Positions 4,946 to 61,697 of a DNA stretch of 64,000 nucleotides are shown here, in pieces. The translations under genes and the position numbers were made by a program. The DNA lies in contig OZ004583.1 in the NCBI GenBank assembly GCA_963924555.1, forward strand, positions 3,319,501 to 3,383,500, given 5' to 3'. Each line of letters begins with the position of its first letter. Positions within the stretch are counted from its first letter, which is position 1. Source of the DNA: Crambe crambe (lineage: Eukaryota > Porifera > Demospongiae > Poecilosclerida > Crambeidae). The notes beneath the pieces are model-generated. The model made no database searches. It was given only the letters and a program-made list of their open reading frames with translations, and had not been told where the DNA came from.

Positions 4946-5095
4946 TCTCTACTCAGCAAAGATGTTTAACTTGACTCTAGAGCACTCTAAAATGTAACAT
5001 TTCACTTTCTAACCAGCTAGCTATCTTCCAACTGGATGACGACAATTCTGCCCCTGAACCTTGTGTGTAACAGGCATAGATACAACTTGTATTCC

Positions 5096-32115: not shown

Positions 32116-32154
<39 letters not shown>

Positions 32155-38100: not shown

Positions 38101-41100
38101 TCTGAAGCTCCACAGGAATACAAGTCTGTGTGACCTTGCTTGTTTAGTGAAAGAAATCAGCGACTTCCAGTACCCTCTGATGGACCACTTAAAGATGCTA
38201 GTTTTCTTCAAACTGCATCAAAGTGTCCTCTGCGACAAATACCTTCGTCTCTACCTCAAGAAGTTCACAGAGTCCCAACAACAACCACACATGCAGATCT
38301 CTGGGTTTATCTTGTCCCTGAAGTTACCCTCTGCCACTTTTTCTTCCTCTCCTCATGACCCTACACGGCCTACAGAAGTGAGTAGTCTCGTCCAGGCCCT
38401 GAAGAACACACACGAGCTGATCAAGAAGATCATGTCTGGTGTAGCTATTTATTCAGAAATCATAGCAGAGGATGAGCTTATGTTGCAGAAGTTAGACATA
38501 GAGAGAGAGTTTTCTGTTTTATCAGGGTACATTCTCCTTTCCGAACTTTCCATGAGCCAGTGCGAGGGATTGGACGGTGTTCGTAGCATGTTGGAACTAT
38601 TTCAGTACACCTCACACATACAGAATATTCGTTCTGTCTGTGAACAGTACAAACTCACCATGTGTCTGCAGGACCCTCTACTCAACGAGTTAACTGAACT
38701 TATCCAAGACCATATTACCAAGGAGGATCGTTCCAAAATGACACCCATTCTTGCCAAGAAGAAGCTGAAACGAGTGAAAGAAATCCTTTGTCTGGATGAA
38801 AATACCAGCTCTAAATGTTTGGACATCTTTGCTGTCATGCCAGATAGTGCTGCCTTTTATCAATTTATCCGGGACAAGAAGTTTTATGGACAACAAGGTC
38901 AGGCCATTTTCTTGCAGCAGTACGAACTGATCACAGCTCAACTTCAACATGAGGAGTATGACGAGTCGGTTCTCAATCACCTCCTGGCAGCTGTCAAGGT
39001 CATCAGTCCCTTTGTGGACCCACAAAATAGCTTCACAGACCTTATGAAGGAGGTGACCTCCCTTAATGCTGTCAATGGCCTCAAGCAACTTGAAACTGTC
39101 AATGCCAATATCACACTTATTCGACTCTGGTTCTCCAGGGCTGAGGTCAGAGTTCAATTTGAGTATAAAGTTAATAAGGGGCCCATAATAAGATTTCCCT
39201 TAGGTCTAAAATTGATGCACATCTCCCCATGCCCCAGTGTAAATTATATTAAATATAATTGCAGGGAGATACTCTTCAGAATGTGGAAAAGGAACTGGAA
39301 TGCCTGATCAACACAGGTCACTACACGTTCCAGTTTAGTGGGAATGGGACAGGGAGCAGCAGGGGACGAATCCTCTTGAAATACAAACCTTTCTCAGCAC
39401 AGCTCCCTCCACTATCCACCAATCAAGAGGAGGGAACAGAGGGACAATGTCCTATTGACTCCCTTCAGGGACAGTCATCAGAGTTGGGGGGAAGGCCTCA
39501 AGAGGAATTGTGGAATGAAGAGCAGATTGGAGACTTCGTGAGGAAGCTGGGTTTCATGGACAAGGAGAATGAAGGGGGGAAGCAAATTAAACAGTTCATC
39601 CATCTTAATCAGGTATTATTAATCCCCATAGTGTCACAACTAAATAAGGTGTTATTTTATAGCCATAGTAATATAATAGTTTAGCTATAATTTTTAGAAT
39701 GAAATTAATGGTCTGCTCATTAGAATGTTTTCCTGTGTGATCTCTATAATAATTGGAATTATCTTTTTCCCCTCTAGACTGCAAACAAACTGTTTGAGTT
39801 GTACCAGAAGCTGAGGGAATTGGGCCATCCTAAGTACTTGTCCTCTGGAACCATTCCTCCTATTCCCTGTTCTATCAGCCAAGACGAGATGGATAAACAA
39901 GTCCACACCACTCAAGACCTGGTCACTCAATGGATTCACAAAGTCTCAGAGCTTCGTAGTCAATACAGCTGGTTGCTCTATCTAAGTGTCCCCAAATTGT
40001 TGCAGCTCTTCCACTCGATCAACTCCACCTCTCTTAATATCGGGGAGAAGACTGATAGGATCCTCCATGAAGTCACCTTTTTAGCACACAATACTGCCAG
40101 CCAAAGAGAATGGCTGAGAGAGGGAATCAAGGCAAGTATAGTCTCTAGTTGATTTAAAATTGACTTCTTTGGGGTTTTTTTTTTTCCTTGGTGGCCATTG
40201 TTTTAAAATAGAGGTATGTAAATAAGGCTATTCACTTCAAATCTCTTGTTGCCTTTAAATAGAGGGTTCTTGAGAATAATTTCAAAAATGCTGACACATC
40301 AAAATCTCCTATGCTGATTGTGGGTCAGTTTCTGGATGTTCTGTTCAAGAACCACAACCTCCCTCAGAGGTGCTCGTTCAGAGACAAGAAAGGCCTTCCT
40401 CGGCATTGGAGCATTGCTACCACTGCATACTTTGCCCAACCCCTCTATTACTGCCCTGCCTACTCCCAGGCTGATTTCCTTGTCTTCATTTTTGACATCT
40501 TCTCTGGCATACCTGAGGCCTACCAGATCCTCCGTTGCCAGGCAACTACCACAGAGGAGGAGCTGAGCCTATTTTTGAAGCGAGCGATTCAGTACCCCTC
40601 CCACTACCTCATGCTGGATGTCAATAAGCTACCTTATAAACTCCAGGAGGTGAGAGAGTGACTTACTTTCTTTAATAGTCAGAAAATGACCAGAACTGGC
40701 CCTTAAGTGAGAGATGGTTGAAAATAACCCAGGCAAGCTCTCAATAAGTAGGAGATGGTTGGAAATGACCAGGGACTGTCCCTTAATGGTTGGAAACTAA
40801 CCAGGTGCTTTCAGCATAAACATAAATTTCCCCTTAATATTCTTCTAGCATATGGTGCAGCTGCACTTAGCAATGCAGAGGGACCACCACCAGTCCCAGC
40901 CTGAGCTGTCTCTCCAGGCCCCTTCCTCTACCATCCACTTTGTGGAGACTGCTCCCTCAGTGCTAAGGGAGATGCCTTGGATACAGTTAATGGACTCTAA
41001 GGTGGGTATGACAATAGATGTTGTTATGATTCATGATTATGAATTGATAGGGTTCTGGCTCATCTCTTGAGGATGTAAAGCAAATGTGTGCAAAGAATAT

Positions 41101-43869
41101 AATACAGCCATCACATTTCACCTGTTTCCAACTTGTCTATGGAGCAGCTGGTATGCATCATGTGATTATCATATGACTAGTAAGATACTGTATGTTATCA
41201 TTGTGTAACTCAGGGGATGGAAAGACACACTACATTAAGAAGCAGCTTGCAAACTGTTCAGTGCATAAGATGATTACCATCAATGAAGCTTTCTCCCCAG
41301 TCAGTACCATCACCAAGCTTCGCTCCCTTCCGCTTGACCAGAGCAATGTTGGCCTCTTCTTCAACTTCACAGTCCTTCCTCCAGAGGTGAGATACACTTA
41401 ATCTCAAAGTCATATGAAATCATACCCCTCTTCTCCTTAGCACTCAGTGGCAGATAGTGAAAGGCTTCATTATCAGGAACTCATGGAGATGATTGGCTGG
41501 TTCTTCTTTGATCTTTTTGTGCTTGGGTACGTGGAGGACCAGGAGTCAGGTCTTTCGTTCTGCTTCCCAGGGGATCTTGCCTGGGCCATTTATGTGGAGG
41601 TAACGCACACTAAATTTTTGTATGATAAGGTCCCATATTAACTCTGAACTCTATAGGTACCATCACGTGACAAGGACATCACTGCCGAAGAGTCACTCAA
41701 GCTCTTTTACGATGAAGTGCCCACCCTGAGCCTGCTGGGTTCCCCTCACTACATCCGCCAAGAGATCCCCTTCACAGTAGACTCTGATGTCCAGCTGGTA
41801 TGCAAGTACCTCCATGCTTATAAGAAAGGTGTCATCGACACGATATACAAGGAAGGTCTCTCCCTCATCAAATACAGCCAAAGCAAGGACCTCTCTGATA
41901 GAGACTGTCATAAGCTTCTTAATGAGTACATGCCAAAACACATCCTCTCTTCAAAGATCACTCAGAAGCTCTTCATCAAGTAATTACTTAAAGTTCATTA
42001 TTAATCCACATATCATTAATAGTACAATTAACTTATCACTCTACTTCAGGTACATGAAGCGCAGATGTGATTTCTTAGATAGTCTTCCTGCCTTCAACTA
42101 CAACACTGGCTCTGGTGAATATTTCACCAATGAGGCAGGGGTGAAGGTTGCTACGGACACCAAACATCTTGGCTCCACCCTCATGCACACCATGCTAAGA
42201 GAAGTCAGTGATTTTTGTGATCCTAGTATCAAGGAAAACTGGTCAGTCAAGGCTCACCAACAGGTTTGTGACTAGAATAGGTACGTACGATGTTATAGAG
42301 CCACATTTGGGCATTCATAACAAGTTAGTCTTTTAAAAGACTAGGAATGCCTCGGCACGACTTCAGTGCAACCTTTACTATTATTAAACTTTCTAAATAA
42401 TGTGCACTGAGCAACATGGCTTATTATAGTAAGGTTGGTATTTACACAGCTAGTATTCTTGCTGTTCAATGCTTTCAAATTGCCGTTTTGAATGATTCTC
42501 ACACATAGTTTGATTGAAGTATGTGTACTGGATTCTTTTATTAGATTCTCCTTCAACATGGCTCTCTCTTTGGCACGTCAAATGATCACCTAGTTCGCAA
42601 TCTCTGTTGTTTTTATTCATTGCTGTCTTTTAATCAGTTCTGTGCATGGGCTTGATTTGTTGACAAAGACGGCCAAGAAGCATCAGCACTCTCTTCACGG
42701 TGTAGCATTACTGTGTAGTGACTCCAAGCCTGAGCCTGAGCCTGTCTGTTTGTCTTTAGTAGAGCTTGAATTTGTGTTGACTTAGCTAGAGCTAATAATG
42801 CACGTGCTCGATACGCGTCACCGCGCATCATTGCGTGCGCTATTAATACGTACCATCATAGATAGATAGATAGTCTCCTTTGGCACTGTGCCTCGGCACT
42901 CTGGTGCCAAGGGGAAAAAATTAGCAATCTTTTCCAGTCTGCTTTGGTAAATTCTGAAGAACACCAATATTACCAAACTATGAGCTAGCTAGCTATTCCT
43001 ACTTCACTCCCTTCATATCTCATCTTGGCCTGTCATGGGAGTGAAGTAGGAATAGTTAGCTCGTAGTTTGGTAATATTGGTGATGGGTAAGGGGTTACTT
43101 GACTAAAGTTCACTCTCTTGTTGCTGAACTTTTTAGAACTGCACACAGCCATCCCTTCTTTTTTATTTAGAATAAATATCTTTTCATGGTAATATTTAAT
43201 ACTCGTAATGAATCTAGGCATCATGTTGAATGCTTTGAGTGTTATCAGTTTTGTAATTTCTGGGATAAACATTGTTTAGATCTCATTTATCCCTCTCCTC
43301 CTCCTCCTTCATTAGCTGATCTATGACTTCAAAGATGGAGGTGCAAGCCTAGACCTTATCTCTCTTCAACCTGACCAAATCGAAGAAGCTGAAATAACAA
43401 AATTCAGGAAGATAGGTGTTAAAATCCCATCCATGCTGTAAGTTTATTAATACGTGTCATGTGATAACTTTATCTAAGTGTATCTTTCACGTCTTGTCAC
43501 ATGACATGTTGTTATGTTTTTGCATGTCACATGACAGTGACTTGAACTCGCGTGAGTTGCTGGATAGTTATTTGTCCCGTGCACTCAACGTGGAGCTGGA
43601 TAATGGCCACCTTACTGTGATTGATAACTCAGCATATGTGTTGACACTGGACTACACCATCAAGATGCTGAATATCCATGAGAGGCATGAGTGTGGAATC
43701 CCTGTGATCATCGAGGGGGAGACAGGAGTGGGGAAAACTGCTCTGGTAGAGATGCTCTCCAAACTCTGGAATCAGTCACTTCTCTTAGTGTGGAAGAAGA
43801 GGAAAGAAAACATCCTCGATTTCCTCCAGAAGGAGCTGGGGGATATGGATGTCTCTTCCGAAAACTATC

Positions 43870-43929
<60 letters not shown>

Positions 43930-46900
43930 ATGTGCATGTGCGCTTTCTCTATAGGTAGCTACTTGCTTTCAATAATGGCATTCTACTTTGATTCTGTTTC
44001 ATTTTGTTTTCTTACTAGTTTAGCTACTCCTTATCAAGTAACTATTTCTGCATGGAATTGCTGCTAAGTGCTTCTTTGCAGCCTTATCACATGGTACTAT
44101 TTGGCACATACTTCCTGTTAAGTGGTGCGCATATGCCTGAGTGCAGTAACAATACAGTCCACCCAGCTGGAAATGGTACCTTGGGGGTGCATATCAGTTG
44201 TGATCTGTGTGGGTTGTCAGTCCTCCTGTAGGCTCCAGGAGGTTGCAGTTTTTAGTGCCTGCCTATAGTGCTGGCCTGACTACTCAGTGGCAGCAATATG
44301 TATTATTGGTGAGCAAAGCGAGCTTATGCAAATTGAGATTTCGATATGCATGCACATACAACATTTGACTTTTGACCCCACAAATGAAACATGCCCACAA
44401 CACTTAGCAACAAATAGCTAGAGCTTATTACTTCTACAGCATTTTGTCATAGAGGCTTAAGTGGATTGTAGGCTTTGGCTTTCTAAGTGATTGTGGTAAG
44501 CCCCTGTGTATGCAGCTATAGCTGTTCATCCTGACAGCATATCTTAGCCTAAGAAGTTAACTACAAATCTTTCACCAACTGCTTTGCTCGCCAATTGAAT
44601 ATATTACACAAACATACCGGAGTACATAATACATATGTACACTTAGTCTATTATTTTTGATTAATTCCTGTTTCCCTAGATGTGTGTTCATGCTGTGGAG
44701 TCATTGAGTTCTGGTGACATCAATGAAAACGCCCTCTTGGTTCTCTGCAGCCATGTTAAATTCCATGACCAGCTCAAGAAACTCCTCCGTCCAATGAGGA
44801 ATGATCCCATGGTCCCCCTCTTGACATTCAAGGCCACTAACACTAATTTTCTTGACGAGCTTTTCAATGATGTCGAGATCTCTGACTCATCAGAGGGAAT
44901 TGCTCATCTGCTTCAGTCCATCTTCACTGCTCAAGTGACACCCACTTTCCACAAGATCAATATCCATGCTGCCATGACACCATCCATAATTAAGAGTTTG
45001 TTTCAGCCAGTATTTGCTCAGGCCAGACTCTTACATACCACTTACCAGGAGAAGCTTGGTCAAGTGGATGAACTCAAGAAGAGTCAGTCCTTTGAATCAG
45101 ATGACAGCACCTTCTCCCCACCTTCTCCTCCGAGTCCATTTGTGACGGTGAGGTCAAAATTTTGCAGGTTGCTATGGATTGAGTTTGTCACATGATTTAC
45201 ATGCAGGTGTTTCTTGATGAGGTAAACACTTCATCATGTCCTGGTCTTTTCAAGGAGATAATTGTGGACAAGAGTTTCGATGGAGAAGTAATTACTTAAT
45301 TGGGATCGAAGTTTAATGCATGACCTTTAAATATTGCAGGTCCTCCATATTATATTGGGTAAAGGTTGTCAATATTAAATTCTGCATGCAATATGCATGC
45401 TAACCTCTATATCCATGCATTTTAAGCATTAAGATTATTTGGTTTAATTTTCCACTCTAGTAAGAACAAAGTGTTAAAGTTGATCTCTAAAACAGTATAG
45501 AGAAATAGATGACTACAGCATTATAGTACATGGTTGTTTCCCCCCCCCCCCCCCCCCCCCCTCTTTATAGCCTATTCCAAATAACATCTTCATTGTTGCT
45601 GCATGCAATCCTCACCGAGGGAACAGCCTGGCTTCCCATGAGACATGGGTAAGGGATACCTACTATGTGCGCTGCTTGCACCCAACACTGAAGTTCTTAA
45701 TGTGGGACTATGGTGCCCTCGACAAGCAGCAGGAGAGAGACTACATCGAAGCCAAGATGAAGATGATTAATAAAGACATGGAAAAATCAGAGGTATGTGC
45801 ATAGGTACAAGACCTTCAAATTTAGTGAGAAAATTTTTCATCCATGTTAATTTCTGCTGACCAGATTTCACCCACTGACCATACCATTAGTGCAAATATT
45901 TTTATTTTAAAGGTGGAAATCCTGACAGACCTGGTTGTGGCCAGTCAGGACAAGATGCGAGATTTTGCCTTCAGGCAATTGAGTGGCAGCTTAAAGCAGA
46001 AGAATGTCGAGTCTAAGAAACTGTCCTCACGCAGCTGTGTGAGTCAGAGGGACATTCAGCGAGTCTTTACCTTCTACCAGTGGTTCATGACTATGTACAA
46101 TAAACACCACCCCCACAAGGAACGGAGTGACTATCACAGGAGAGCAGTCCTAATGGCTCTGGGCATTGTCTATTATATGCGTCTTAATGCTAAGTATCGT
46201 AAAGAGTACAAAAAATATCTTGATGACATCAATCGAATGCCAAACGAAGTCTCTTTCTCCACAGCCTTTGATGAAGAACTGGAATACTACATTAAACAAG
46301 TTGAACTGCCCAAGGGCATTGCTCATACCATAGCTCTGAAGGAGAATCTTTTTGCCACCATCATCTGCACCATCACACACACTCCTCTTATCATTGTGGG
46401 AGCTCCAGGGTCCTCCAAAACCTTATCTTTCAACCAAACCGTTGTTAACCTCAAGGGGCAGGAATCTAAGAAACAACTCTTCCGAAATACGGAGATTTTT
46501 CGCTCACTTGACCCACACTATTACCAGTGTTCTCGACGCACCACGTCCAATGAGATTCAGACAGTCTTCTCACGAGCTGTGAATCGCCAGCGTAGTCACC
46601 AGCACTTCAACCTCCCCATTTACTGTGTGGTGTTCATGGATGAGGCAGGCCTGCCTGAGGAGAGTCATGAGTCACTCAAGGTCCTCCATTATCACCTGGA
46701 CAAACAAGAGGTGTCCTTTGTAGCCATCACAAACCATGTTCTTGATGCAGCCAAGACGAACCGTGCTATATCTCTTTTCCGCCCTGAGGCCTTGGACGAG
46801 GACCTGGAGACCCTCGCCAAGGGTTGTCTCTGTTCCAATCCAGAGAGTCCTCCACTTAAACTGCAACAAGATTTGGTCACAGTGGTGAAATTCTGCCAGC

Positions 46901-48855
46901 CTTATTCTGACTGCATGAAAAAGAGTTCAGAGTTCTCTCATTTTTTTGGTCTGCGAGACTTCATTCAGTTTATCAACTACTTGAGGAGGAAGAGAGACGA
47001 GAGACAGGACCTCTCCCCTCTCCTGGTCATGCAAGCTCTGGAGAGGAACTTCAATGGGTCTGCTGAGTTTGAAAACATTTGCAAGATGTTCTTGCAAGTG
47101 ATGGACACAAACCCCAGAGATGTGCCAAAACGCAAGATACTGGAAATCCTCAAAGAAAGTATACAAGATCGCCCTCAGGCAATGCAGAATCTCACTGAGA
47201 ATGAGGTCCGGTACAAGTTGATCATTGATCCCTCAGAAGATGATTCTCTGGTGCGTCTGCTGTTCTCCATGGGGGTACTGACAAGGGACAACACTAGAAT
47301 GTTTGTCTGTAGTGATTTCCCTGGTGATGGAGAGCTACAGAAGATCAACACCATTGCAGCCATCCGACACTCTGCCATGGAAGGACACACTGTTATCATG
47401 AGTCAAACTGACAGCATCCATGAGAGCTTCTATGATCTCTTCAACCAAAGGTTTCGACGCATTGATGACCCTGTGAATGGAGCTCACTACTACACTAATA
47501 TTGCCATTGGGGCCCACCTCAAACCTTCACGCGTACACCCTGACTTCCAGTGTGTTGTGGTAATCAAGGAATCCGAAGTAAAGGACACCCCCTCCCCCTT
47601 CCTGAACAGATTTGAGAAGTATTTCATCTCTCATGGAAGTTTATTGGAGACGGCACTGCAGAACCTTCCACCATGCATGGCCATTATGATAAAAGCTATC
47701 AAGGAAAAGGTCAGCAGTACAGCAACTTCACCTGCAGTATGCAGCCTCCTATGTATGGAGCTGCCTGGTTGGAACCGTATACATGCATGCTGACAGCAAT
47801 ATATCCTAGCCTAAGAATTTGAAACACAAAATTAATGAGTTGGTACTTTTACTGCTTCGCTCGCCAATAAAAATGTGTTACACTAACATACCCTGGTAGC
47901 TATGTTAGTCTTTTGTTATAATTGTTGTTGTACTCCACTGCAGGTGAATGACTTCATCTGTCAGGTGCTTGGTTTCCAAAGTTTGTATGGGCTTCAGCCA
48001 GAGACACTAGACTCGTTGATATTGGACCTGCTACCCCCTCTGAACCACACCTACCAGGAACTTGGGGAGGACAGTGTGGTAGACACTGAACAAGAGGTCA
48101 GCATTGATCTTTACCTGCTCAAGAAAATCCTCAACGCCCTCACAAACAATGCAGGCTTCAGCATCCCACAGGTGAGTCAATAGTCCCCCATGCCATGGCT
48201 CCGTACATGTATACACCTCAATCATTGCACAAGGTATTTCTAACTTTAGCCATACTTATATATTTTGTATAAAAACACTAATAAAAACATATGCTATCCA
48301 ATATTATTCCTGTTATGGTATCATTAATGCAGTATCTCCTCAATGAGTTGCATAACGATGCTGTCCATGTCTTCAGCCTGATGCACTACGACCCCAAATA
48401 CGAGGGTTTGCTCAAGACTTTGACTCGCCAAAATGCCATGAGAGCTGTAATGGAGGCCTTCAACCTACTCTACTCTGCCCCAGCCCCTCAAGATGAAGGG
48501 GGACAGAATGACCTGACCCTTGAGGGATGCATGGTGGTCTCCATTCTGCAACTGCTGCTGGTGAGGCTTTTCACTAAACGTTTGATGCAGTTGATGACTA
48601 CCGAGGCCATCATTCTCAACAGAAAGAAAATCCCTTTCTCATACCTTGCCAACTACATCAGCAACCAAGCCCACTTCAGTCTCAAGGACCTCATTACTCA
48701 GTATCATAAGGCTGTAGTAGCACTCTCGTAAGTCTCTTTCCCATTAAATAGCCCCTCAATCAAGCTCTTAGCTTCACTGCTAAGATTTTGGGCTAGATTT
48801 GTATTCTCTAGCTGAAGTTAGTAGAGTGTGTTCTAAACTAAAGTTGATGTATATA

Positions 48856-48915
<60 letters not shown>

Positions 48916-51900
48916 GGAATCCCTCCAGGACTCCTAATAAACTAATATGTTTCACACGTTCCTCCCCACTGGTTCATACCCTTCCTGCCCAGTTACCCTC
49001 CTCCATGATGGAGACACCCCAGGACCTAGACACTGTGGCTGACCTTGTCTTCCAAAACACAGACAAAGTAGTCATCCACAAACTATCTGGCCTTCTCTTC
49101 CAGAGTTCTGTCCAAAGGCTACTGAGGGACTTTGTAGTCTCAGAAACTGCAGAAGTATGTCTCTTGCTGGCTAATATGCAGGAGACTTCACTGAAGACCA
49201 TCAACCACATTCGCCTTATGATGGAAGAGGCAGAACTACTGAAAGCTCAGAAACAGTCCACAAAAGTGTTTGTGCTTCTGTTGCACTTCCCTCCGGTGCA
49301 GTTTTTCCAACATTGCTACCCATCCCTCTTCCTGAAGGGCTGGGACCACTGTTACCTGGACACCATTGCTCATAAAACTTTAGAGGGTGTGGTCAACATC
49401 GAAGACTGGTTTCATAAGTGCTGCTTTCCTTCTGAAGAGGACAATCCTGACAAACCTGATGGTCTCTTCAAAGCCCTCATGCAGCTCCTTCCTCAAGCAA
49501 TCCCTATCATTTCAGCTCGTGTCTACTTTGGCAACAAGAAAGACGCTTCCTTTAACTCTTTCATGAATGCAACTGAGAGAAGTGAGGCTTTGAAGCGGTT
49601 GCTATTCGATTGTAAAATTGGAAATGTGCTTTGTGAAAAATTCTGTGCTTATTGGAAGCCGAGGGTGATGGCTGAGTACTTGGAGAGAGCTGCCACTTTT
49701 TCAAAGCAGAGAGAATCCACTTTGAACATCACAGATTCCATCCAGACTCAATTCAAAGCTCTCTACTTCGACTTCTGTGTGTATATGCTCACACGAGCAA
49801 ACGAGAACTTCAACCTTGACATCATCTTTGCTGAGGATTGCTCTTTATCTCTCCGTAAACTCTTCATTGATATTTTCAGGGTTTTCCCCACGCCAAAACT
49901 CAATCAGCTCAATATTCTTAGCAATAACCTGCCCCTCCTCAAGCCCTCCCTACATTGTCCCCACTTCCCCTTTTTTGGGTATGTCTGCAGCCTGATGGAG
50001 AAACAGGTGGAAGTGAGCAGGGAGGCAGCAAACCTCCGGGTAGATATATTGGCAGAGAACGATTCTCTCTCCATTGATCACACCCCTAAAAACCCTGCTG
50101 AAAAGCAACAGGCATTGATCAATGTTTTAATTAAGAACTTGGAGCCAGTAGTGAATGTAAGTACTCTATTGTATATCATGTAACTGTCTTGTAAGATCAT
50201 TGTCTGCAGACCTTATACTATGTATGCACCCTCCCTTTATAATACTAGAACCTCATGTGACTGTCATGTGATCTCCATCATTGTTTGCAGGCCTCTCCCA
50301 AACGAGTGCTTGGGCTGATAATAGATGCCATGGCCAAGGATCAAGACCTCTGGTATTGCTACTTCAATGACTTCATTATCTGCAAGCTGAAACTGGGTGG
50401 GGAAGATCATGTCCCTGAGGGGGACATAGCCCAGTTGAGCATGCACACTTTTTTCCAGCAAATCCACAGTTACGATGCGCTTGAGAAAGTGGTACAGCTG
50501 CACAGTCATGTCAGTGTCCACTGGCTCCACCTGGCACAGGTGGCCCCTATTCTGAGGCGTCTCAACAAACTCCAGGGTCTGGGGGTAAGTTGTAAAGGAG
50601 ACAGAAGAAAGATCCACAATAACAGAAGGGGTATGAATGATAGGAGTTTAAAATTAATGAAGTGTGAAGGGATAAAGATATGTACACTCAAGATTGAGTT
50701 AAACATCTTCATCTTCTCTTACATTTGATTTAGCTGCAAAAAGAACCACACCTTCTGTCTCCCTTGACTCCTACACCCACATCTCCTACCAAGCAGCTGC
50801 TTCTGTCAGTGGAGCAGACCCAACAACCACTGGGTTCTTTCCTCCATATCTCCAATTTCATCATTAGCACTCTGTTTGATGTCCTCTTGGGTGCCACCTA
50901 CAACACAACAACTCCTCAGCTGGTTATCTGGTTTAAGGCTTATCGGTAAGGGGGAGTGGGGTTATATCCAGGTAGAACTGCAGTCTGGCAACCATTCCAG
51001 CACTATTACAATAGAAAGAAGCACATCAGATATTAATCAGTATCAAGTGAACTGTGATTTATTGTAGCTATTTGGCCCTGCATGGAATTATTATAGGGAC
51101 ATAATGACAGTGACCGTGCTGAAGCACTATATCTACCTCTCCCTCTCCATGCCCGAGGCAGCTGGCACAGTAGGATTAGACTTCAACTTGTTGGAAGCAA
51201 AATTGAATGTGATGCAGGCCACCTTCCTCGTCCTGGAATCCAGCCCCTCCCTCAACCAGGACGTCCTTGACGAGGGACTACTTACCTTTCAAACCCTCTT
51301 TAACCGCTACTTCAAGGAGGGTGTACAGGTACAGAAGGGGATTTCATGTGCATATGTATGCACATAGCTAGTAATTTTGTATCTTGATGATATATCTACA
51401 TATGTACTTATCTTGTTACTACTGACAGTTGAAGGACTCTCGACCAAGCCTTACTGGAGTGACTGATGTGGCTGTTTCATTAGTCAATGACAGCCTCCAT
51501 TCCTGTAATTCTGCTGTCAGACTAGTCATGGAAGGTCTTCTGGCCCACTTCTTCCCCCCAGACCGACCACAATACCACACCGAGGATATCCTCTGGTTCT
51601 TGAAGTTGGCTAACAAGCAGAATTGGAGTGCCAACCCTTTCGAAGTGGAAGAGGATAAGAGTGCACCCATACCCTCCAACAAGGTAGCTATTGAAAATAT
51701 TTAGTTTTAAAATAGAAAAAAAAATTTTTTTTTCTGTTCAGCTCCTTTCTGGTGCCATAGAGATGAGCATGTTCAAGTTCTACTTGGCCCGTATTCTTGG
51801 TAACTATGAGGAGCCCTCAAAAGGCAGAGCTAACCAGCAGGAGTTTGGACCACTCCTGTATCGGCAAGAGAACCGAGCTCTAGTAGGGAAGGTGCTCATG

Positions 51901-54900
51901 TTCAAGAAAGAACTAGGACTTCCTGGTCTTTATGTTCCAGTCTTCTATCAGAACTCCCCTCCCATTGTTATGGGGGTAAATGCCAAGGTCAATATGACTA
52001 TGTCAGTCATTGAAGATCAGTCATGTGACTACCTGCATTCTTTTTATCTTTTTACTCTACCTCAGAATGGCCGCATGCAGCAGTCACTTTGTCACCTGTA
52101 CTTCCTGACACTCATGGAACACCTCAGGAGTGAATCTAAGTTCAAGAATCCCGCTGGACTCTCTCTTCTGCTCCGCACAGCCAGCATCATCCAGAAGCAG
52201 CTGAAAAATGCAGAGGGTGCCGAAGCTGTTCTGGTAGGGGTGGAATTTCAAGCTGTAACCCAAGTGATAATTCAGCAACTTGCTTTATACCTTGACCCTA
52301 CACAACCTCATTCGCTGAAAAAAATAAAAAACAATATTGATGAAATCAACCTGTAAGCTCTCTCCCTCCCCCTATAATCTGTTTCTATTTTATGCTACTT
52401 CATATGTACATCAGTCTACTTAATGACCCTTCCATGGGGCATACAATGGTCCTGTCCCTTCACTTGCTCAAGTTGCTAAAGAGTTCCAGAAGGTTCATAG
52501 ACCTCATGACGACAGTGAAGTACGACTCCATTTCCTGCATTAAATGCCTCCAGCCTATTCATTCGCAACTAAAGGTTTGGTGGAATGGGTATGCTATTGG
52601 GTATAATCATATGATTTCTGTAGTCTCCATCAGAGATGAAGCCACACCTCCTTCCCTTCCTCCAGCCAGGGGCAGAGGGGGAACTGAGCATGCTCTACAA
52701 ACAGGTATCCTCAGTCATGTTGGGGATTCACAACGGTTCCAAGAAGGTTGATGATCTCCTGAAAGTGGCCCGAAACTGGTAAGGTGATACAGCATATCAA
52801 GAAGCAGTATTTTAAGTATTTAACATGGTGGTGTTGCAGTAAGCCAAGAGCTAGAGGAGAGGACCAATATCTCTCCTTCAGGATGATGGTGTGGCTTGCT
52901 ACCTATTATAAGTTCTATGATAAACAGGTACAAGAAGTCTATGGCATTCGATAAACCTGTCTCATTTTTGGATCATTGAAACTAGATGTCAGGGAAAATA
53001 GCTTCTGCTTGCCCCCTTCCGGCCCCTTCTATTATTTTTCCACTTAATTTGTGTGTATTCTGCAGGTTGTTTCCCCACTGCTATGTAACGTGATGGGAGG
53101 ACCGAAGATGTCTAACTACTTGCAGGAGGAGGGCTATGTTCGTCTGATCCAGTGCTTCCTGAAGCCTGATTTCATGCATCAGCACAAAGAGAGCCCCAAT
53201 CCCCTCACAGAGAGACAAGTCCTTGAACTGGAACCTGATGGTAGAGTTCAAGTCATCCCACAAGAAGGTGCTCAGTGGGATCCCCTTTACAAGCTTTTCA
53301 TGCCCACACAGGCTGATGATATAGGTATGTTTATGCTGGGTGTGGCTTGATGGTTTAGTTTCTGCTTCTCTCTCTCAGATCAATCTGATGTCGATCTTCG
53401 TCATTCAATGGCTAACATGCTAGCTGTTGTGCTGGGCAGTCCCCCTCGCTCCAACCATTTATGGTATCATCTCTTTGCTGCCAACAAACTCCAAAAGACA
53501 TACATGACAGGGTTCATGGTAAGTACGTACACAGGCGACTTACCATTATGGCATGTGCCCATGTGACTCTCTTCCCTCCTGGCCCCTGCAGTATGACTCC
53601 ACCATCCACCATGATAGACTTCTTTATGACTGTGGAGTGGAACTGTCCCCTGAGGGACAGTTTGGGAGACAAGACTACAAGAAGCATGCTTGTCGAGGAA
53701 CTTACACACTTCATTCCCTCTACCTCCTTCTCTGGGCCAATTTCAGTGCCTTCTGCTTGGCCTTGCTGACTCAGCCAGATGCAGACCAGTACATCCATGG
53801 ACCAATCATCTCAAAATGGTTATCTGTACGCCACTATTGTGTCTCTCAACTCCGCACCCTCTGGATCCACATGCGCAACAATTTGGGTCTCTCTGAGGAA
53901 CAGAGGTCCTTCTTCGCCATGAGGGCTATGAACAGACTCTATGAAGTGAGTCCAAACATCTTATTCAGTATGACCTTACCACTCTTCCCCTCCCCTCCCC
54001 CTCTCCTTCCCTCCATACGCATGTAGCTTCTGAGAAAGTCCAGTTCTTTGACTCCCATCCATTTGAATGTCCCGGTGATCAAAAAGGGTGTCTTTGAAAC
54101 TCGTGAGGACTTGGATAGTTATGAGAAGATGTGGCACATGGCCATCTATCAGCCAACTTGGGACGAGCTAGCAGAAAAAGTAATGAATAATACATGGTAC
54201 ATACAATAGTAGGCTTATAAGTACACTGAGCATGCCCAAAAGAACTGAACGTCCCCCATAATCTGCATAAATTATGCTTTCTGCTGTTTTTGCAGTTTGT
54301 GGAACTTTCAAACCAAAACCAGAACAAGCTGTTCAATGAAATAAGGTGAATGACTTGATGTCCTTTTACCAGATACAATGCATTTAATAACCTTCATTTC
54401 AGACACTTAGAAATGCATTACCCTCATTTTCCGTCTGAGCAAGAGTTCTGTCATACCATTCTAAGTGCAGGAGACTTGGAACAACATTCCGAGGGGGGCA
54501 AGCTGAGAATCCTGACCAGGTTCACTATGGACTGGCCACTTCTCAAAGTGGGGGGGGATCTGTTGCCGGACCTAGTAGAACTCTATCGCTGGCTCCACAT
54601 GAACATTGCTCACCTGATCACCTATGAGCGTGCCTCTTCCCTTGCCATTGGTCATGTGATCCAGCTGGTGGAGAGGAACTCCAGCAAAGAGATGGGAGAA
54701 TACCTGCGAAAACTCTACGAGCGAGTCAAAGACAACTACAATCGTTATGTGGAGTTGGTAGGAGGGGCCATTGGAGCAGGGGCATGTGCTGCAGTCCGAC
54801 GTGGAAATAAAATCTTCACCATAGATGATGAAATCCCTCTGATCCACTTCCTTTCAGGTACATATCGAACACACTCCCTGAAGACACACCCACTCCAATC

Positions 54901-55494
54901 TAAAACTCTGTAGTCATTTTAATGAAGTTTGTTGTTAATTGTGTTTAGATGTGGAGGAGGAAGATCAAGGGAATGACTGGTTGTATGTGGTGATCAACAA
55001 CATCATCACCAACCACAACAACATCATTGAGAACCTTTACTCCATTGTCCAGCCCAATAAACACACCTCTTTGGCACGCCTCCTTCCAGAGGAACCCTCT
55101 ACCATCCATCCCACTGAAGTCATAGCCAGTCACTCCATTGTTAGTCACTTCACCGAGTGAGTCACATAACCTATGAGTGATGAATGAAGTATTATAGTGA
55201 TGATTGTTGTGGCTAAGGCTACATGGAGTCAGTAGTTTCCTTCAACTGGTGAGGAGTCGTTACCAACCCACCATTCCAGGGGAGAGTCCTGCTGTACAAA
55301 ATTCCATTCACCCCAGGCAGGAAGTGTTTCAACTGGAACAACTGGAAGAGGATATAGTGACCTCCTTCATCATGGGCAAACCACTCATCAAGTCACCACT
55401 GCTACTCAGAACTGTCTTCAAATTCAAGAAGGAAGAGCAGCAAGATACCTGTGATGATTCAATGTATGTGAATCAATTATTTCTATTTGCCAAT

Positions 55495-55569
<75 letters not shown>

Positions 55570-58500
55570 TCTCCCTCCCTCCCTCCCTCAATAGTATGAT
55601 ATGCACAGCCTTGGATCTTCAAGGCATGACAAACTCACTCCATGAAAATTTTAAGGTCCCTCTCTCCGAAGCTCTTCTCAAGCGTTTTGAGTATGAATTC
55701 CACTTTGCCAGCTACCACCTGATGCTGGAAGTGGTGACAGCTCTACGGACTGTCTTGAATTATGCCATCAAGTCCTTACAGGAGACTAGACCAGGAGACA
55801 CAAACAATTTGGTGAATCAGAAGGTTCCTGAATTCATGTTAAGTCTTTATGAGCACCTCACGAATGATAGTGATGTGCTTTCTAAGATTGGAGTCCAAAG
55901 TGCCTCCCCTTCCCACATCTCCTGTCTTGCAGAACTACCCCTTCCCTCTGTGTACAGCTGTCTCAAGTTGTTTCTTGGCTGGGTGGAAGAAGGTTACTAT
56001 GACTTCTGTACCCTTCCATTTGCATTCAAGGTGCACATGAGTTACCAGGACAAGTCTGTGGTCGATCAGCAGCTGCGTCTCAGGTGGCAGGGGAGTGTGC
56101 CTGATCTCTTGGAGGAGCTACAGAACCTGATTGATGTCCTCAAGCATTCAGAACAGGATATCACCAGCAGAGTCAAGGAAGCAGCCAATGTAAGGCCCTT
56201 ATACAGTATGGCTAAAAATACATCACTGCTGATCACTTTCAAAAAAAAATATCAATTGAGCATCAAACTAGGCATCATGCTAGCTGGCTGCTTAGATTCA
56301 GTCGTATAAATAAAAAAAAATTACATTCAATCAGATGCGTTATGTCAGAACATGCCATAAAGAATAGCAAAAGCACTAAAGTGCTAACCCTCACTGCACA
56401 CATAAGACAAAATGTCTGTTGTTATACAAGAGTTAAGAGTGCATAATTATGTCATAATTTTGAGATCATTTCACTGATGAAAATAGGTACAATTGTCTAC
56501 GTTTTCATTTTATAAATTCATTCCAAATCATTGTTGACAAAAAGCATACACTTCACATTCTCATTTTGAATCTCCAGCAATCGTCAGTGCCTGCATGTGC
56601 ATGTAAACTTCTGCTTGGAGATGGCCTAATGACTGATACAGCACTGTGTCTGTGGTGTAGCTAGCTGGAGTGTTTTAGCTATAGCTTTTGCTCCTACAGT
56701 ATACTAGTTTAATGCATGTATCTATGTGCATGTTGCTTAAAAGCTTTTATAGCCATTAGCTAGCTGCTACAGTGTACATGTCTTACCTGCATGCTTTTTC
56801 TGGAGATGAGTAGGTAATGGTCAAATAAAAATATCAATAGTGAGCACACATGCGGGTTGCAAATCTTGCCTTCTTTCAGGATTAAAGCCTTTATCCAAAA
56901 ATTGGCTCAATTTAAACACTGAAGAGTATCATCTAGACATCATTAATGCTGATATATCGAAGTGCTCTGATCACTACTGGCTGCATGGTTGATGTATTAT
57001 AAACACAGACACCAACTGAGTATACTCTATAACCCTTGCGCATGTGTTGAGGGTTAATTATTGCGCAGCGGGAATTTGTATGAAGAAGCCCATGGATGAA
57101 GCTATTCAGCAGGCTAGTAGCGCAATGGAGCAGCTACAAGCAGTCCAGTTTTTTGTTGGTGGGTTTGATTTATTGCCTACTGGTTACACCATCCCCTGTC
57201 TTTTTAGGTACAACCCTACCCCTTAACACTGGAGATTGAGGAGTTCTGGGTGATTGAAAATTCTTTCCAGTCTGATCTCTTTGTTGAGTTCTTTGTCAAT
57301 AGCTAATATGTGGGAATTGTGATGTTGATTGAGGTCAAATTTCTGGAGATGCAATGGGTCCATGGTAGCCTAATGAAACAATGCTCTCTGGCTCAGATGG
57401 AGTCGGGGTAATTTCTAAGCTCCTCCTTGAATTGAGGACATCATAGGGGAGTAAAGATTTCTCTAAAGGGCATTTTGCTGAAGATAGTTATTTCACAGCT
57501 TTTGCAGTTATTATGTGTGACTGTATTTGCATGCTGTGCCCTTGATACAGCCTCGGGGTATAGGTAGAAGCGGAGGCATATCTCTTCACCTGTTGCTGTG
57601 TAGGTGATGTGTATACAGTGGTAGGGCTGAGCCTTGCCAGTATGCTTTTGGGATGAAAGGAGTTGTGTGCTCCCAATGTACTGGCATTGTTACCCTGGAA
57701 CCTTGTGCCTGATTGCTTCGGGGATAGACACCATATGAAAATGTCCTCCTTGTACTTGTCCCAGTAGTGAAAGTGACTATCTTTAGTTGCTAGCTGCCTG
57801 AAGCAGTGATCATATTGCACACATGCTTCAGCTGAATATTGTAGCATTGTGCAATGGCTTATTGCCTTGGGTGTTTGACCTCGTTAGAGGTTGCAAATGG
57901 CTCTATGATGATGGTAGTCTCCCCTTTGCTGCCATTGATTAGAGAATTTTCTTCCTTCAAGATATAATATGTAATTGGCGAGCGAGCGAAGCCCCACACT
58001 AATTGGTCAAAATGGAAAATTGCGATATTTATATGTTACACGTACGTCACTCAAAATGCGCATGCGCTTACGCATGCGCATGAAATAGCTACTAAGCAAC
58101 GTCATATTAATAAGCAATCATTTTCGTTAAGCTTGAAGTTGAAACACTATTGTAGCGAGTATTATGGAACCCAGAGAACCAGAAAACAAGCGAAGGAGGG
58201 CCCCAGAACACCCTCTAGAAACTGACCAGCAAAGAAGAGCGAGACCTCATGAAAGATATGAAAGAGACAGAGCTAGAAGGAGAACAGAGTCAAAGGAACA
58301 GAGAAAAACAAGACTAGCAAAGAAATGCGACAGATAGAGCCAGGAGGAGGGAATGTACAGAGTCAGCAGAAGATAATGCTGAAAGAGCAGAGCAAATGAG
58401 AGCTAGAAGGAGAGCAGAGTCAGCAGAACACAGAGCTGCCAGATTACAGCATATGAGGGCTCATTATTTGAGAGACTGGCTACTGAGTCTGAACAGGAGT

Positions 58501-61500
58501 GGTAGCCTGGGTTCAGAGAAGACACTCTAATGCTAACTGGGAATGCACCAAGTCAGTTAACAACCTGAATAGCTAGATATCAAAAGTCACTGTTGGGGCT
58601 ATATAATCATAAGTGAGGGAGGAGCACATTGAAATGACCACTGGCTGCTTGCTCGCCCAACTAATGCTATACGAGCATCTCTAGTAGTGTTAAAGATAGA
58701 TTAGAAAATAAAAGTACATTATTTGCAAGATTAAAGTGGAGAATAATGCTCTTTATACAAATCTCTCATAACAATCATTGGTTGCATTGTAGATGACAAC
58801 CACTATGTCAAAAGGTAGTCGATATTATCACTTTGCACACATTTAGCTATATGTATATTGTCCATATATCACATTACGCATCAGCAATCTTAAAAATCTA
58901 TACATCACTGCTGAGCTTCCTTCTATTCTTAACCTGTTGGGCTAAGCTTGCAGAGCAGACTTAGCAAAAGACTTCCATTGTAATTCATTTACACATTTAG
59001 CTCACATTGTAATAGTTTAGTACAATGCCAGGGCAAGGCAACCATACTATAACTATTATACGTATGTTCCACCTGATTGGCTGACTAGGCTCTGCCTTTA
59101 GGCTATGTTGCTTAGCTACTCTATCACCAGCACCGGCAAGGTAGATTCAATGGCTGTCCCCATGACAATTTCTGTCTCGGTACAGTATGTGTACTGCACT
59201 GCTAATGTTGGTGCTTTGCAGGAGCCACACCCATAGGATGGTTTTGACCCTGACAATGACCTGTCTACAGGGCCCCTCAAGAGGAAGCTACATACTGACT
59301 AAGCCCCTCCCTCGCTTCAACTTTGCCAGTGAGGAAGAACTTTCTAGACTTGGAGATGGTTTGGTACCCTCTATAAAAAGCAGTCATTCCCAAAGCTAGT
59401 TTCATGAAGTGCCAACTAAAGCCTATAGAAGAGCTGAATGTAGTGTAGTTGGCTTAGTATTACCAAGTGTGTAAGCTAGAAAGCCTATGTACCTTAGTTC
59501 TGGTGATTTTCCACATGAATCTCTGCTGTTGGATTCTCCACATACAAAGCTTTCATGGCTGATTAGCACTATATTTGAAGCCATTGTACGTACCTAACTT
59601 TATCAGAGTTTTGTTCGATCAAGCATAATGTGCACAGGATCAATGATAGGTTTGAATTGCATGATGACAATCTATGTACCCATGCCATGTAGAGAAAAAA
59701 TGGCATCCTGCTTGCCTCATAGTCTTGTGAGCCAGACCATTCCACTGGTCAACACTCCACATTAGTTTTGTGCCCGTGGAATGCACAAAATTAATGATTG
59801 ATGGGCAGGTTCAATTTGCACATGAATTAATTATTTGTTTTCCACCTAGTATATTTAGTCCCATAGACCAGTTGTACTTTAACTGGCATAAAGTCCTCCC
59901 CCAGGGGATAAAACTAGCTATAAAGTCTTCCCCTTTGCTAAATAATTAGAGTAATGCAATATATCTATTATAATACAATAATAAGATGTTTTGAAAGTTT
60001 CTTTGCTTGTGATAGCTACTCATGGCGTAAAAATCAACAAAGAAGACTGTGCAAAGTTGCTCGGATACTGTTCAGTATTATATTTTCTGGTCTCAATAAT
60101 AATTTAGAAAAGGTCTCAGATAGTACTTATGCATCAGTGCACTGCAAAATATCATCAGGTAGATCTATACTTGGTCCTCCGGCTACGTACACTCTTTCCA
60201 TGAACTAAATTTTTTTAGTTCCACTACAGCTTTTTCTCTAGAAAATTAGAACACAATAATGATAATATACTATGTGCTGCATACATCAAACACATGATTT
60301 GTGCTAATGGTGAATTTTGTTTATATATGTAGAAACCTATTGTGGAGTACCTGATAGAGTACCACATGCTTGAAGAGAAAAGAGACCATCTTGCGTGCTA
60401 CATTCCTAGAACCATCATGCTCCACCATTACGTAGCCTTCAGGCTCTCCCTCCGCAGGTATACAGGTAGACGTTTTGACACTTCTCCATTCCATTACTTT
60501 TTATATCACTGCAGGCTATGCCTGAGGGTCCAACAGGAACTTAAGGGGAGCAACAAGAGTGATGGAAGCTTGAACATCTGGTCAGAGTTCGTATCAGACC
60601 TGTGGGAGAAGCATCTTCCTCACTTGAGGTGGCCTGGAGAACATCATGGTGAAAGTAATCCCAACACTGGTTGCTATGGTTTTCAAGAGGAGGAGGAAGA
60701 GGAAGGAGAAGAGAATGAGGATTGCGTGCTGACATCCTCTCTCCTGGGGGACAGTGCTGATGAAGATGGTGGATATGAGAGAGGAGGGATGGAGTCAGGC
60801 TCCAACGGAATCCGAGACACCCCCATGGAGGAGGAATCTTTCACTATTTTGTCTGAGGTGGATGGCCACACATTGGATTTGAATAAGAATTCAAGTGAGG
60901 AGAAGGAGGGAAAAATTGGAGGAGCCTCTAATACTGAGACCACACATCTCCCAGGACACTGTGAGTATTGTCTGATGTGTGTTTGTGTGAAATTATTCTG
61001 AACTCAAGAAACGTCTTCTTTCTATAGTACAAAGTGGTATGTACATATGTAGCACTATGTGCAATGAACTAGTGGTGCTGTAGTAATGTGCTTTTATTTT
61101 CCTCCTGAAAGATGCAAGTCTAGAAGAACTGGCTCAAAAAGTTTCTGCTCAGGATGTAGCTGACTTTCTGACAAGGATCCAGCTCCCTCAATATGCAGAT
61201 GATTTCTTGAGTTCTGACATCAGTGGGGAAGTCCTGTTGGAGGCAGATGCAGATGTTCTGAATGAACTGGGCATGACTAGCCCCTTGCACCAGATGAGAG
61301 TCATTGAGTTATTCCGTAGGGAACTGCAGGGGAAAACCCCCAGGTACTAGTACTACATAATATTAAGTAGTGTCATGCTGATTTCAAGAGTTCTATAGTT
61401 CCTGAGAAATAAAGATAATGTACTCATTTGGCACTTATTCTCCTATATCTTGTTATCTTTCAATTTTTTTTTCTGTATAGGTATTCACAGGAGCATGTGT

Positions 61501-61697
61501 CCAGATTCCTGCAGCAATACAAGCTGGAGAAGTACACTCCCATGCTGGAATGTCATGGCATAGATGGAGACATGATCCTGGCGGTGGAGGGAAAACTAAT
61601 GAAAAGTATCCTCAGTGAAGTGGGTGTGACCTCAGCTGTGGATAATTTGAAGATAAGGACTAAGTTCAAGACTTTTGTAAGTAATGAAAATCCTTGA
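26585..61697 (+). CDS. RNF213-like giant AAA+ protein with C-terminal SAM domains
   Basis: Fifty-three exons join with consistent phases to 16,704 bases (about 5,567 residues; human RNF213 is about 5,200). Diagnostic sequence is the AAA core: P-loops GAAGDGKT (about 1,824), GETGVGKT (about 2,215) and GAPGSSKT (about 2,685), with Walker B motifs VFLDEVN and VVFMDEAGLPEESHESLKVL. A helical E3-shell-like region follows (LLHFPPVQFF, YPSLFLKGWD, GVVNIEDW, GACAAVRRGNKIF). Two SAM domains end the protein. RNF213 is a dynein-like AAA+ ubiquitin ligase acting in the cytosol and on lipid droplets and microbes. Here no RING or RZ finger could be found, so ligase activity is doubtful. The ATG at 26,585 follows a good splice acceptor (TTTCCTTAG/GA), so a 5' UTR exon may exist upstream. 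A strong donor (TTTTGTAAGT) lies just before the final stop. Exon coordinates are given in the five part entries. Confidence 0.85.
31367..32973. mobile_element. 1.6-kb Mutator-like element in intron 12
   Basis: The ends GGGTGTCTTGATT and AATCAAGACACCC are inverted repeats extended inward by GGAATGGA-type repeats (about 70 bases each). A perfect 9-base direct repeat CTCTTTACA flanks it (31,358-31,366 and 32,974-32,982). Nine-base duplications are typical of MULE transposons. The internal 88-codon ORF is not transposase-like. It is inserted in an inverted piece of the 3.8-4.9 kb array unit and itself carries the nested element at 31,887-32,240. Confidence 0.8.
31887..32240. mobile_element. Nested MITE with ATAGGCGCCGGAA ends
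   Basis: The ends ATAGGCGCCGGAA and TTCCGGCGCCTAT are perfect inverted repeats. Subterminal GGCCTCCCCACTT blocks occur twice. It contains a (TA)n(TG)n tract near 32,118-32,155. The style matches the other CCGCCTATG-ended small elements in the window. Confidence 0.75.
33192..33799. mobile_element. MITE-like element carrying transposase-like scraps
   Basis: The ends GTAGGGAGGTTAATTTCGT and AACGAAATTAACCCGCCCTAC are imperfect inverted repeats, with GGAAAAAAATTCG/GGAATTTTTTCC inside them. The internal plus-strand frame reads HEESQIKKRGPYIKISNE. The KRGPY.K pattern recalls the start of a helix-turn-helix transposase domain, but the rest is missing. Confidence 0.55.
34751..35211. mobile_element. 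461-base MITE with CAGTGGCGTATCTAG ends
   Basis: CAGTGGCGTATCTAG and CTAGATACGCCACTG are perfect 15-base inverted ends. Five-base ATCGT duplicates flank the element directly (34,746-34,750 and 35,212-35,216). CAGTGGCG ends recall hAT-type MITEs, although a 5-base duplication is short for hAT. Found in intron 12. Confidence 0.75.
35405..35860. mobile_element. Uninterrupted copy of the 8-kb element
   Basis: TGATAGT-like end, TACTCTCTAAGTAGGGATGG, ACACCTTCAATGTGCTAGGA, then CTTTAACTCGACATGTTCAA and GCAGACATTTTTATAG, parallel to 8,120-9,060. It has one TTAA where the other copy has the nested 638-base MITE. Confidence 0.7.
36089..36260. repeat. P3-type palindrome in intron 12
   Basis: GGGAGTGAACTTCAGTTAAA, CCCCTTACCCATTAACTATT and CCTACTTCACTCCC are mirrored by their complements. 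The right side continues to CACACAGCCATCCCTACTTC near 36,280. It ends about 170 bases before exon 13. A smaller cousin is at 35,260-35,400. Confidence 0.75.
36431..41001 (+). other. RNF213-like gene, exons 13-18 (stalk/linker)
   Basis: Exons: 36,431-36,822; 37,660-39,145; 39,265-39,612; 39,778-40,131; 40,263-40,649; 40,849-41,001. Helical sequence typical of the region before the first active AAA unit (VNANITLIRLWFSRAEGD across the exon 14/15 join). Exon 16 ends AAG/GCAAGT, so intron 16 is a GC-AG intron; the frame on both sides requires it. Exon 14 is 1.49 kb without an intron. Confidence 0.8.
36852..37318. mobile_element. MITE with GTCTTGTGAGCCAGACC ends in intron 13
   Basis: The left end GTCTTGTGAGCCAGACCTAT and right end ATATGTCTAGCTCACAAGAT are inverted. 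Inner AAAAATAGGTCTGGTGAAAG and CTTTCACCAGACCTATTTTT mirror each other. A fragment of the same left end is at 59,729. Confidence 0.7.
42340..43195. repeat. Intron 23 repeats, including a P3 palindrome
   Basis: 42,962-43,082 is a palindrome (ACCAATATTACCAAACTA, ATTCCTACTTCACTCCC and complements). The P3 right arm continues to CACACAGCCATCCC at 43,155. Upstream, a small GGCACTGTGCC/GGCACTCTGGTGCC fold lies at 42,880-42,910. No exon is seen. Confidence 0.65.
43872..43930. repeat. (GT)n microsatellite forming the intron 25 donor
   Basis: The exon ends AACTATCAG at 43,871 and the intron begins directly with about 29 GT units. Every GT is a potential donor and the true one can only be inferred from frame. 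Confidence 0.9.
44306..44597. mobile_element. Small TIR element in intron 25
   Basis: ATTGGTGAGCAAAGCGAGC and GCTTTGCTCGCCAATT are inverted ends about 290 bases apart. Related right-end sequence (GCTTCGCTCGCCAATA) lies at 47,853, and related ends flank the element at 57,971-58,660. Confidence 0.65.
48860..48914. repeat. (CT)n microsatellite at the intron 31 acceptor
   Basis: About 27 CT units run directly into the splice acceptor CCAG at 48,916, replacing the normal polypyrimidine tract. Confidence 0.9.
55498..55588. repeat. (CT)n/(CCCT)n microsatellite at the intron 48 acceptor
   Basis: About 35 CT units and then CCCT units lead to CAATAG, the acceptor of exon 49 (55,595). Confidence 0.9.
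57488..57850 (-). pseudogene. Gag-like/recombinase-element fragment
   Basis: The minus-strand ORF reads VQYDHCFRQLATKDSHFHYW and then TRFQGNNASTLGAHNSFHP. The W/YD..FR..A...W spacing resembles a recurrent upstream ORF of DIRS/tyrosine-recombinase-type elements in cnidarians and sponges. The zinc-binding residues expected later are mostly missing. Tentative, from memory. Confidence 0.3.
57971..58660. mobile_element. 690-base TIR element with Arg-rich repeat ORF relic
   Basis: ATTGGCGAGCGAGCGAAGC and GCTGCTTGCTCGCCCAACTAAT are inverted ends. From the ATG at 58,164 an ORF reads MEPREPENKRRRAPEHPLET and ERDRARRRTESKEQRKTRLA, stops at 58,338, and continues in the next frame as RARRRECTESAED, RARRRAESAEHRAARLQHM. 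Such RxRRRxESxEQRxARL repeats are common at the N-termini of Helitron-helicase-like proteins in invertebrates. It is a frameshifted fragment. Confidence 0.5.
59190..59399 (+). pseudogene. Possible recombinase-element N-terminal fragment
   Basis: One frame gives DGFDPDNDLSTGPLKRKLHT and then a stop. The next frame gives SYILTKPLPRFNFASEEELS and RLGDGLVPSIKSS and a stop. RF..-SEEEL..L..G.VP is similar in style to the fragment at 26.0-26.2 kb. Two frames and no neighbours indicate a relic. Confidence 0.3.
60333..61697 (+). other. RNF213-like gene, exons 50-53 (tail with two SAM domains)
   Basis: Exons: 60,333-60,457; 60,515-60,960; 61,112-61,343; 61,481-61,697. Exon 51 encodes an acidic disordered linker (EEEEEEGEENED). 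Exon 52 is one complete SAM domain (QDVADFLTRIQLPQYADDFL ... LNELGMTSPLHQMRVIELFR, about residues 5,419-5,495). Exon 53 is a second SAM-like domain (HVSRFLQQYKLEKYTPMLEC ... ILSEVGVTSAVDNLKIRTKF, about 5,496-5,567), ending NENP-stop. Intron 50 is only 57 bases and keeps the frame open if retained. SAM domains usually mediate homo- or hetero-oligomers. Human RNF213 has none that I know of. Confidence 0.85.

Follow-up and report, generated by a model that had tools for sequence, protein, structure and literature searches.

A giant RNF213-type AAA+ gene of the sponge Crambe crambe with a tandem SAM end and no detected RING or RZ finger

A stretch of 64,000 nucleotides from the 143 Mb genome of the sponge Crambe crambe (C5:3319501-3383500, in the following called the window) contains a giant gene that is related to RNF213 (mysterin). 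Judged from its sequence, this window gene probably encodes a member of the RNF213 family that is inactive as a ubiquitin ligase, competent as an ATPase and able to oligomerise through SAM domains. An earlier sequence-only reading had placed the gene at 47944-61697. An exon indeed starts at 47944, and the landmarks were found where they had been reported (GVVNIEDW at amino acid (aa) 3320, SCIKC at aa 4112, LLPDLVELYRWLH at aa 4564, and the stop codon), but the full gene is considerably longer and starts at 26585.

The gene model was generated by dynamic programming with codon conservation and splice sites, using the alignment with two paralogues, PA on contig C21 (with 88% identity over the C-terminal block) and PB on C5 (inverted, 70%). 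It comprises the exons from 26585 to 61694 plus the stop codon, without internal stops, after two zero-length artefact exon rows had been removed. In tblastn the PA locus covered the window protein over its whole length (aa 1-5329) apart from small gaps, and the frames are open in PA and PB. From 48 kb onward the introns have lengths of 49-217 bp, except for one of 4143 bp near the end, the counterpart of which in PA has 490 bp. Three further paralogues were included, i.e. PC (C21), PD (C19) and PE (C1). A spliced aligner served to model PA to PE from the AAA region onward (PB from the AAA core on only), and the PD and PE models start after the AAA3 Walker A motif.

The AAA+ core has been retained, as the earlier reading had stated. 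The AAA4 exon matched mouse RNF213 in the PDB (phmmer E value 1e-42), and the window gene carries Walker motifs at AAA2, AAA3 and AAA4, including Walker A and B at both AAA3 and AAA4; the domain numbering is presumed to correspond to that of RNF213. PA, PB and PC likewise carry the motifs of AAA3 and AAA4, and PD and PE those of AAA4. According to the available part of PMC12075652, the RNF213 ligase is activated when ATP binds at AAA3/AAA4.

The ligase modules of RNF213 are a C3HC4 RING and an RZ finger with zinc ligands and a transthiolation cysteine. The metal ligands of human RNF213 are C4505, H4509, C4525 and C4528 and the predicted nucleophile is C4516 (PMC11549300, in the part available); in the mouse protein, Cys4462 in the RZ finger is the active site and transthiolation residue (PMC12075652, available part), and RNF213 is functional without its RING (PMC7311170, available part). 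Neither module was detected in the window gene, in agreement with the earlier reading. A pattern for the full C3HC4 array, applied to all six frames, found the human RING used as control and nothing in the window gene and its close paralogues (0/6 loci), and half-RING and loose RZ patterns were scattered over both strands of these loci as by chance. Profile searches for RING, RZ and SAM, which had been proposed earlier, returned only the last of these in the scanned parts of the window gene: the RZ family PF20173 had 28 matches in the genome at E<=1, none of them in the window, and Pfam detected zinc fingers neither in the E3 regions encoded by the window gene, PC, PD and PE nor in the scanned pieces of the window protein. 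SCIKC, correctly singled out before as the only close cysteine pair, is the sole CxxC in 5329 aa and is absent from PA and PB; PD and PE have one CxxC each at other positions, which are not shared by other members. The RING site could be placed only inexactly: the end-to-end alignment set the human RING opposite aa 3912-3952, where the scores are close to zero, and by eye it falls into the first half of aa 3675-3976. PD gave little information on this site, its model having dubious tiny exons between a 413-aa exon and the RZ site. A zinc-knuckle string of the CCHC type in a long intron of the PB locus (C5, reverse strand, joined-stretch position 12345) probably belongs to a retroelement.

At the C-terminus two SAM domains were predicted previously, and Pfam verified them (SAM_2, E value 2.9e-19, two stretches). 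PC also has two SAM domains, and PD has one in the piece that was scanned. In the PDB the pair matched the SAM domain of Neurabin-1 (E value 2e-6), the tandem SAM of tir-1 (E value 3e-5), Caskin and the SAM domain of DGK-delta; some SAM domains of this kind oligomerise in other proteins. As in tir-1, which we take to be the SARM1 orthologue, and in Caskin, the two domains are adjacent, and the phmmer matches span both of them in the tir-1 and Caskin chains. In contrast to these proteins, the SAM pair of the window gene is fused to a giant AAA protein, and no TIR or ankyrin part was seen. The SAM end was assigned to the same gene as the E3 region because an intron of only 57 bp separates the exon that aligns with the final part of human RNF213 from the next exon. 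Compared with human and mouse RNF213, the window protein thus shares the AAA+ core with nucleotide sites at AAA2, AAA3 and AAA4, a similar length and a collinear C-terminal region, whereas RING and RZ were not detected and a tandem SAM has been added. A CBM20 domain was not matched by Pfam in two N-terminal pieces, which cover about aa 1-1350.

A genome-wide search with the AAA region revealed two groups of RNF213-type genes. It retrieved eight close loci (E values below 1e-90), seven loci clustered on C17 at 4.07-4.46 Mb (28-41% identity over parts) and four weak others. On the same strand and within 45 kb of the AAA match, SAM was found downstream in 8/8 close loci versus 0/7 C17 loci, and RZ in 0/8 versus 7/7. 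The Fisher value of 1.6e-4 for this split serves only as a description, since duplicated genes entered it as independent cases. The table behind it comprised 17 of 56 SAM places, 20 of 28 RZ places (one on C18 and seven on C9 were left out) and one AAA place per locus from 36. The four weak loci (C21:2957728, C10:2945714, C9:5240588 and C41:10867) have neither SAM nor RZ nearby and stand outside the 8-versus-7 count, as do partial loci on C8 and C16. The 413-aa exon with GVVNIEDW follows the same division (8/8 SAM loci, 0/7 C17 loci). On C8 (3185546-3191768), a ninth, diverged C-terminal block (E value 0.006) is followed by SAM and has no AAA match.

The C17 genes have an RZ match and no SAM match, and the RING was found in neither group. 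A search with the human RING and its flank retrieved the post-RING flank in 7/7 C17 loci and the RING part in 0/7, and in one C17 gene no complete RING was seen by eye in the 867 bp upstream of the post-RING exon. Because the RING is also not found in the RZ-bearing genes, its absence is not special to the window gene; RZ loss together with SAM gain, not the absence of the RING, marks the SAM clade. The earlier picture of a gene without RING and RZ and with two SAM domains is supported, but at least eight such loci exist in the genome, and only part of that picture is particular to them. In one C17 gene that was read through the RZ finger, CPRGHPYFVGE and CGRPVQELNCVTCGARIGG lie on separate small predicted exons, and exon loss would therefore be an easy route to RZ loss. 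Beside the post-RING exon of the C17 gene inspected for its RING (L052, about 827-855) the sequence CVHHACIHC between stops resembles the middle of a RING and is either a relic or a chance match.

Because the window gene has no recognisable RZ finger, has kept its ATPase motifs and has gained SAM domains, the simplest reading is an ATP-switched self-assembling scaffold. The protein would bind and hydrolyse ATP, would be unable to accept ubiquitin from an E2 by the known route of RNF213, and would assemble via its tandem SAM into oligomers or coats, possibly acting together with RZ-bearing paralogues. In RNF213 itself, RZ zinc and nucleophile mutants did not ubiquitylate bacteria or the Toxoplasma vacuole while the vacuole coat still formed, and all RNF213 coats depended on ATPase activity (PMC11549300, available part). 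A non-ligase scaffold had already been suggested, and it is still the best inference from the missing and gained domains, but strong constraint at the RZ site leaves room for a new activity.

Several observations weigh against this reading. RNF213 coats on bacteria require the RZ finger (PMC11549300, available part). The E3 region had no match in the PDB with phmmer as a single sequence or with hmmsearch as a profile. The AlphaFold model of the 413-aa exon was poor (predicted local distance difference test score 53.5), and its fold-comparison matches were general folds, AAA among them. Local alignment around the RZ site was non-significant, since 7 to 55 of 200 shuffles reached the real score in seven tests, and hhalign yielded an E value of 0.47. 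Lastly, of the eight segments tested the RZ site is under the strongest constraint, a result that fits an active site no less than a scaffold surface. Ratios of nonsynonymous to synonymous substitutions (dN/dS, NG86 method) were determined for eight segments in three loci, i.e. the window gene, PA and PB, and showed all three to be under constraint. At the RZ site (aa 4279-4360, 82 codons) the ratio was 0.04 with PA and 0.10 with PB, the lowest of the eight segments in both comparisons. Elsewhere the values with PA were 0.14 for AAA, 0.16-0.25 for the E3 segments, 0.17 for the linker and 0.28 for SAM, and those with PB were 0.25-0.52.

This constraint speaks for the alternative that E3 ligase activity persists by way of a new catalytic residue, e.g. 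in the RZ-site block or at another conserved cysteine. The RZ-site exon was found in 8/8 SAM loci (and in 0/7 C17 loci), and the E3 alignment of four members contains four invariant cysteines, including that of RHYCV (aa 4408). However, the cysteine of the RZ site (YDCGVEL) is a serine in PC, and no zinc ligand set was recognised. We regard a relocated active site as improbable, albeit the strongest competitor. The block was also considered as a degenerate RZ finger, based on its position, a phase-0 intron like that of the RZ in a C17 gene, and a CG pair downstream at similar spacing; this was rejected, as some shuffles reached the real score. Alternatively, an alignment by eye matched the upstream half of the block to the segment that precedes the RZ in RNF213 (LAFSPATMAHAFLPTM / AYLPTM); in that case about 50 residues would have been cleanly excised. 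Because neither alignment of the block is significant, only the absence of the RZ ligand set is claimed. A partial copy of the RZ-site exon lies at C16:3515489-3515689 (E value 1.7e-13), outside the eight loci.

The loss of ligase modules presupposes that the C-terminal region derives from the E3 module of RNF213. When a profile of four family members was aligned end to end with residues 3451-5247 of human RNF213 (numbered as in the 5247-residue PDB chain), the score exceeded 60/60 shuffles and 60/60 block permutations at three gap settings, with z values of 5.3, 6.0 and 6.8 above the shuffles and 4.0, 4.2 and 5.1 above permutations of 40-residue blocks. The best hhalign match paired aa 4677-4827 of the window protein with human RNF213 4923-5060 at a score of 43.4, compared with a maximum of 30.6 in 40 shuffles and 24.4 for the reversed sequence. 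Because both alignments exceeded all controls, homology to the E3 module is supported, best in the C-terminal part, by order-sensitive alignment. The long E3-shell-like region described earlier is accordingly collinear with that module, but its fold comparison rests on the weak model of the 413-aa exon. Alternatively, the gene could belong to a sister family made up of giant AAA proteins of the dynein-like type, in which the region was never an RNF213 E3 module and nothing was lost. The failed phmmer and hmmsearch matches to RNF213 would fit such an origin, as would the absence of the 413-aa and RZ-site exons from the seven C17 loci. The alignment scores above all 120 controls at each setting and the C-terminal hhalign match argue against it, and we consider it somewhat less probable than a relocated active site.

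A zinc-finger exon overlooked by the model is very improbable. The introns were indeed inferred from paralogue comparison, but at 48.1-55.6 kb they are short (49-189 bp in the window gene, 54-254 bp in PA), and neither a full RING pattern in six frames of the six loci nor a PF20173 match within 45 kb downstream in any of the eight SAM loci was found. A decaying pseudogene, in favour of which nothing was found beyond the missing domains, is hardly credible in view of 5329 codons without a stop, the frame kept in PA and PB, and dN/dS of 0.04-0.28 and 0.10-0.52, respectively, over the eight segments.

Work on RNF213 in moyamoya disease and immunity treats it as a ubiquitin ligase, yet the coat that it builds on one pathogen is driven by the ATPase and arises independently of ligase activity (PMC11549300, available part). 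A natural family that keeps the ATPase, without both ligase modules and beside RZ-bearing sisters, would offer a direct test of the AAA machine without ubiquitin. It also bears on which ligase module is ancestral, as RZ, not RING, was found in the non-SAM genes. As a tentative and rather doubtful extension, RNF213 may have split in an animal lineage into SAM-less RZ ligases and AAA+ SAM proteins devoid of ligase function, a new, very constrained module replacing RZ and SAM polymerisation replacing ubiquitin as the driver of coat growth. If so, cell-autonomous defence would make use of a ubiquitin-independent mysterin coat, which may co-assemble with the ligase paralogues.

Features of the window gene (window positions)
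Feature	Position	Strand	Basis or remark
Whole gene	26585..61697	+	52 exons, 5329 aa, stop TGA 61695-61697
AAA2 Walker A GAAGDGKT, aa 1655, intron-split	41051..41386	+	sequence motif
Exon with AAA3 Walker A GETGVGKT, aa 2048	43538..43871	+	sequence motif
Exon with AAA3 Walker B FLDE, aa 2256 on	45207..45287	+	sequence motif
AAA4 exon, GAPGSSKT and FMDE	45913..47709	+	RNF213 homology
End of AAA core and start of E3 module, including 413-aa exon 48917-50156 with GVVNIEDW	47944..50584	+	gene model, alignment
Putative RING-site stretch, aa 3675-3976, no Cys/His array, introns 97-151 bp	50734..51987	+	alignment and inspection by eye
Exon with SCIKC, sole CxxC, not kept in PA or PB	52415..52574	+	paralogue alignment
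RZ-site block, two exons (NHLWYHLFAANKLQKTYMTGFM / YDSTIHHDRLLYDCGVELSPEGQFGR...), no RZ ligand set	53379..53945	+	alignment, dN/dS
Exon with LLPDLVELYRWLH, present near other SAM matches	54403..54857	+	sequence search
C-terminal E3-module segment, best hhalign match to human RNF213 (aa 4677-4827)	54949..56189	+	hhalign
Exon aligning with the final part of human RNF213, followed by a 57-bp intron	60333..60457	+	gene model, alignment
Acidic linker	60515..60894	+	gene model
SAM domain 1	61112..61343	+	six-frame PF00536 match at 61141-61302
SAM domain 2	61481..61694	+	Pfam, PDB search

Some further observations concern other parts of the genome. RZ loci on C6, C18 and C16 (L010, L013 and L015) encode RZ fingers of the type WYKCPNGHxYCIGECGGA, two of them in long open frames, and resemble ZNFX1-type genes. 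Very many RING matches occur on C3, C5, C9 and C17 in open frames of about 700 aa, reminiscent of a large TRIM-like expansion. The window itself also contains three copies of a short open reading frame family (ILPPYxGxFILSEE...), for which no Pfam family was found above the cut-off, at 14173-14778, 19870-20448 and 63336-63779.

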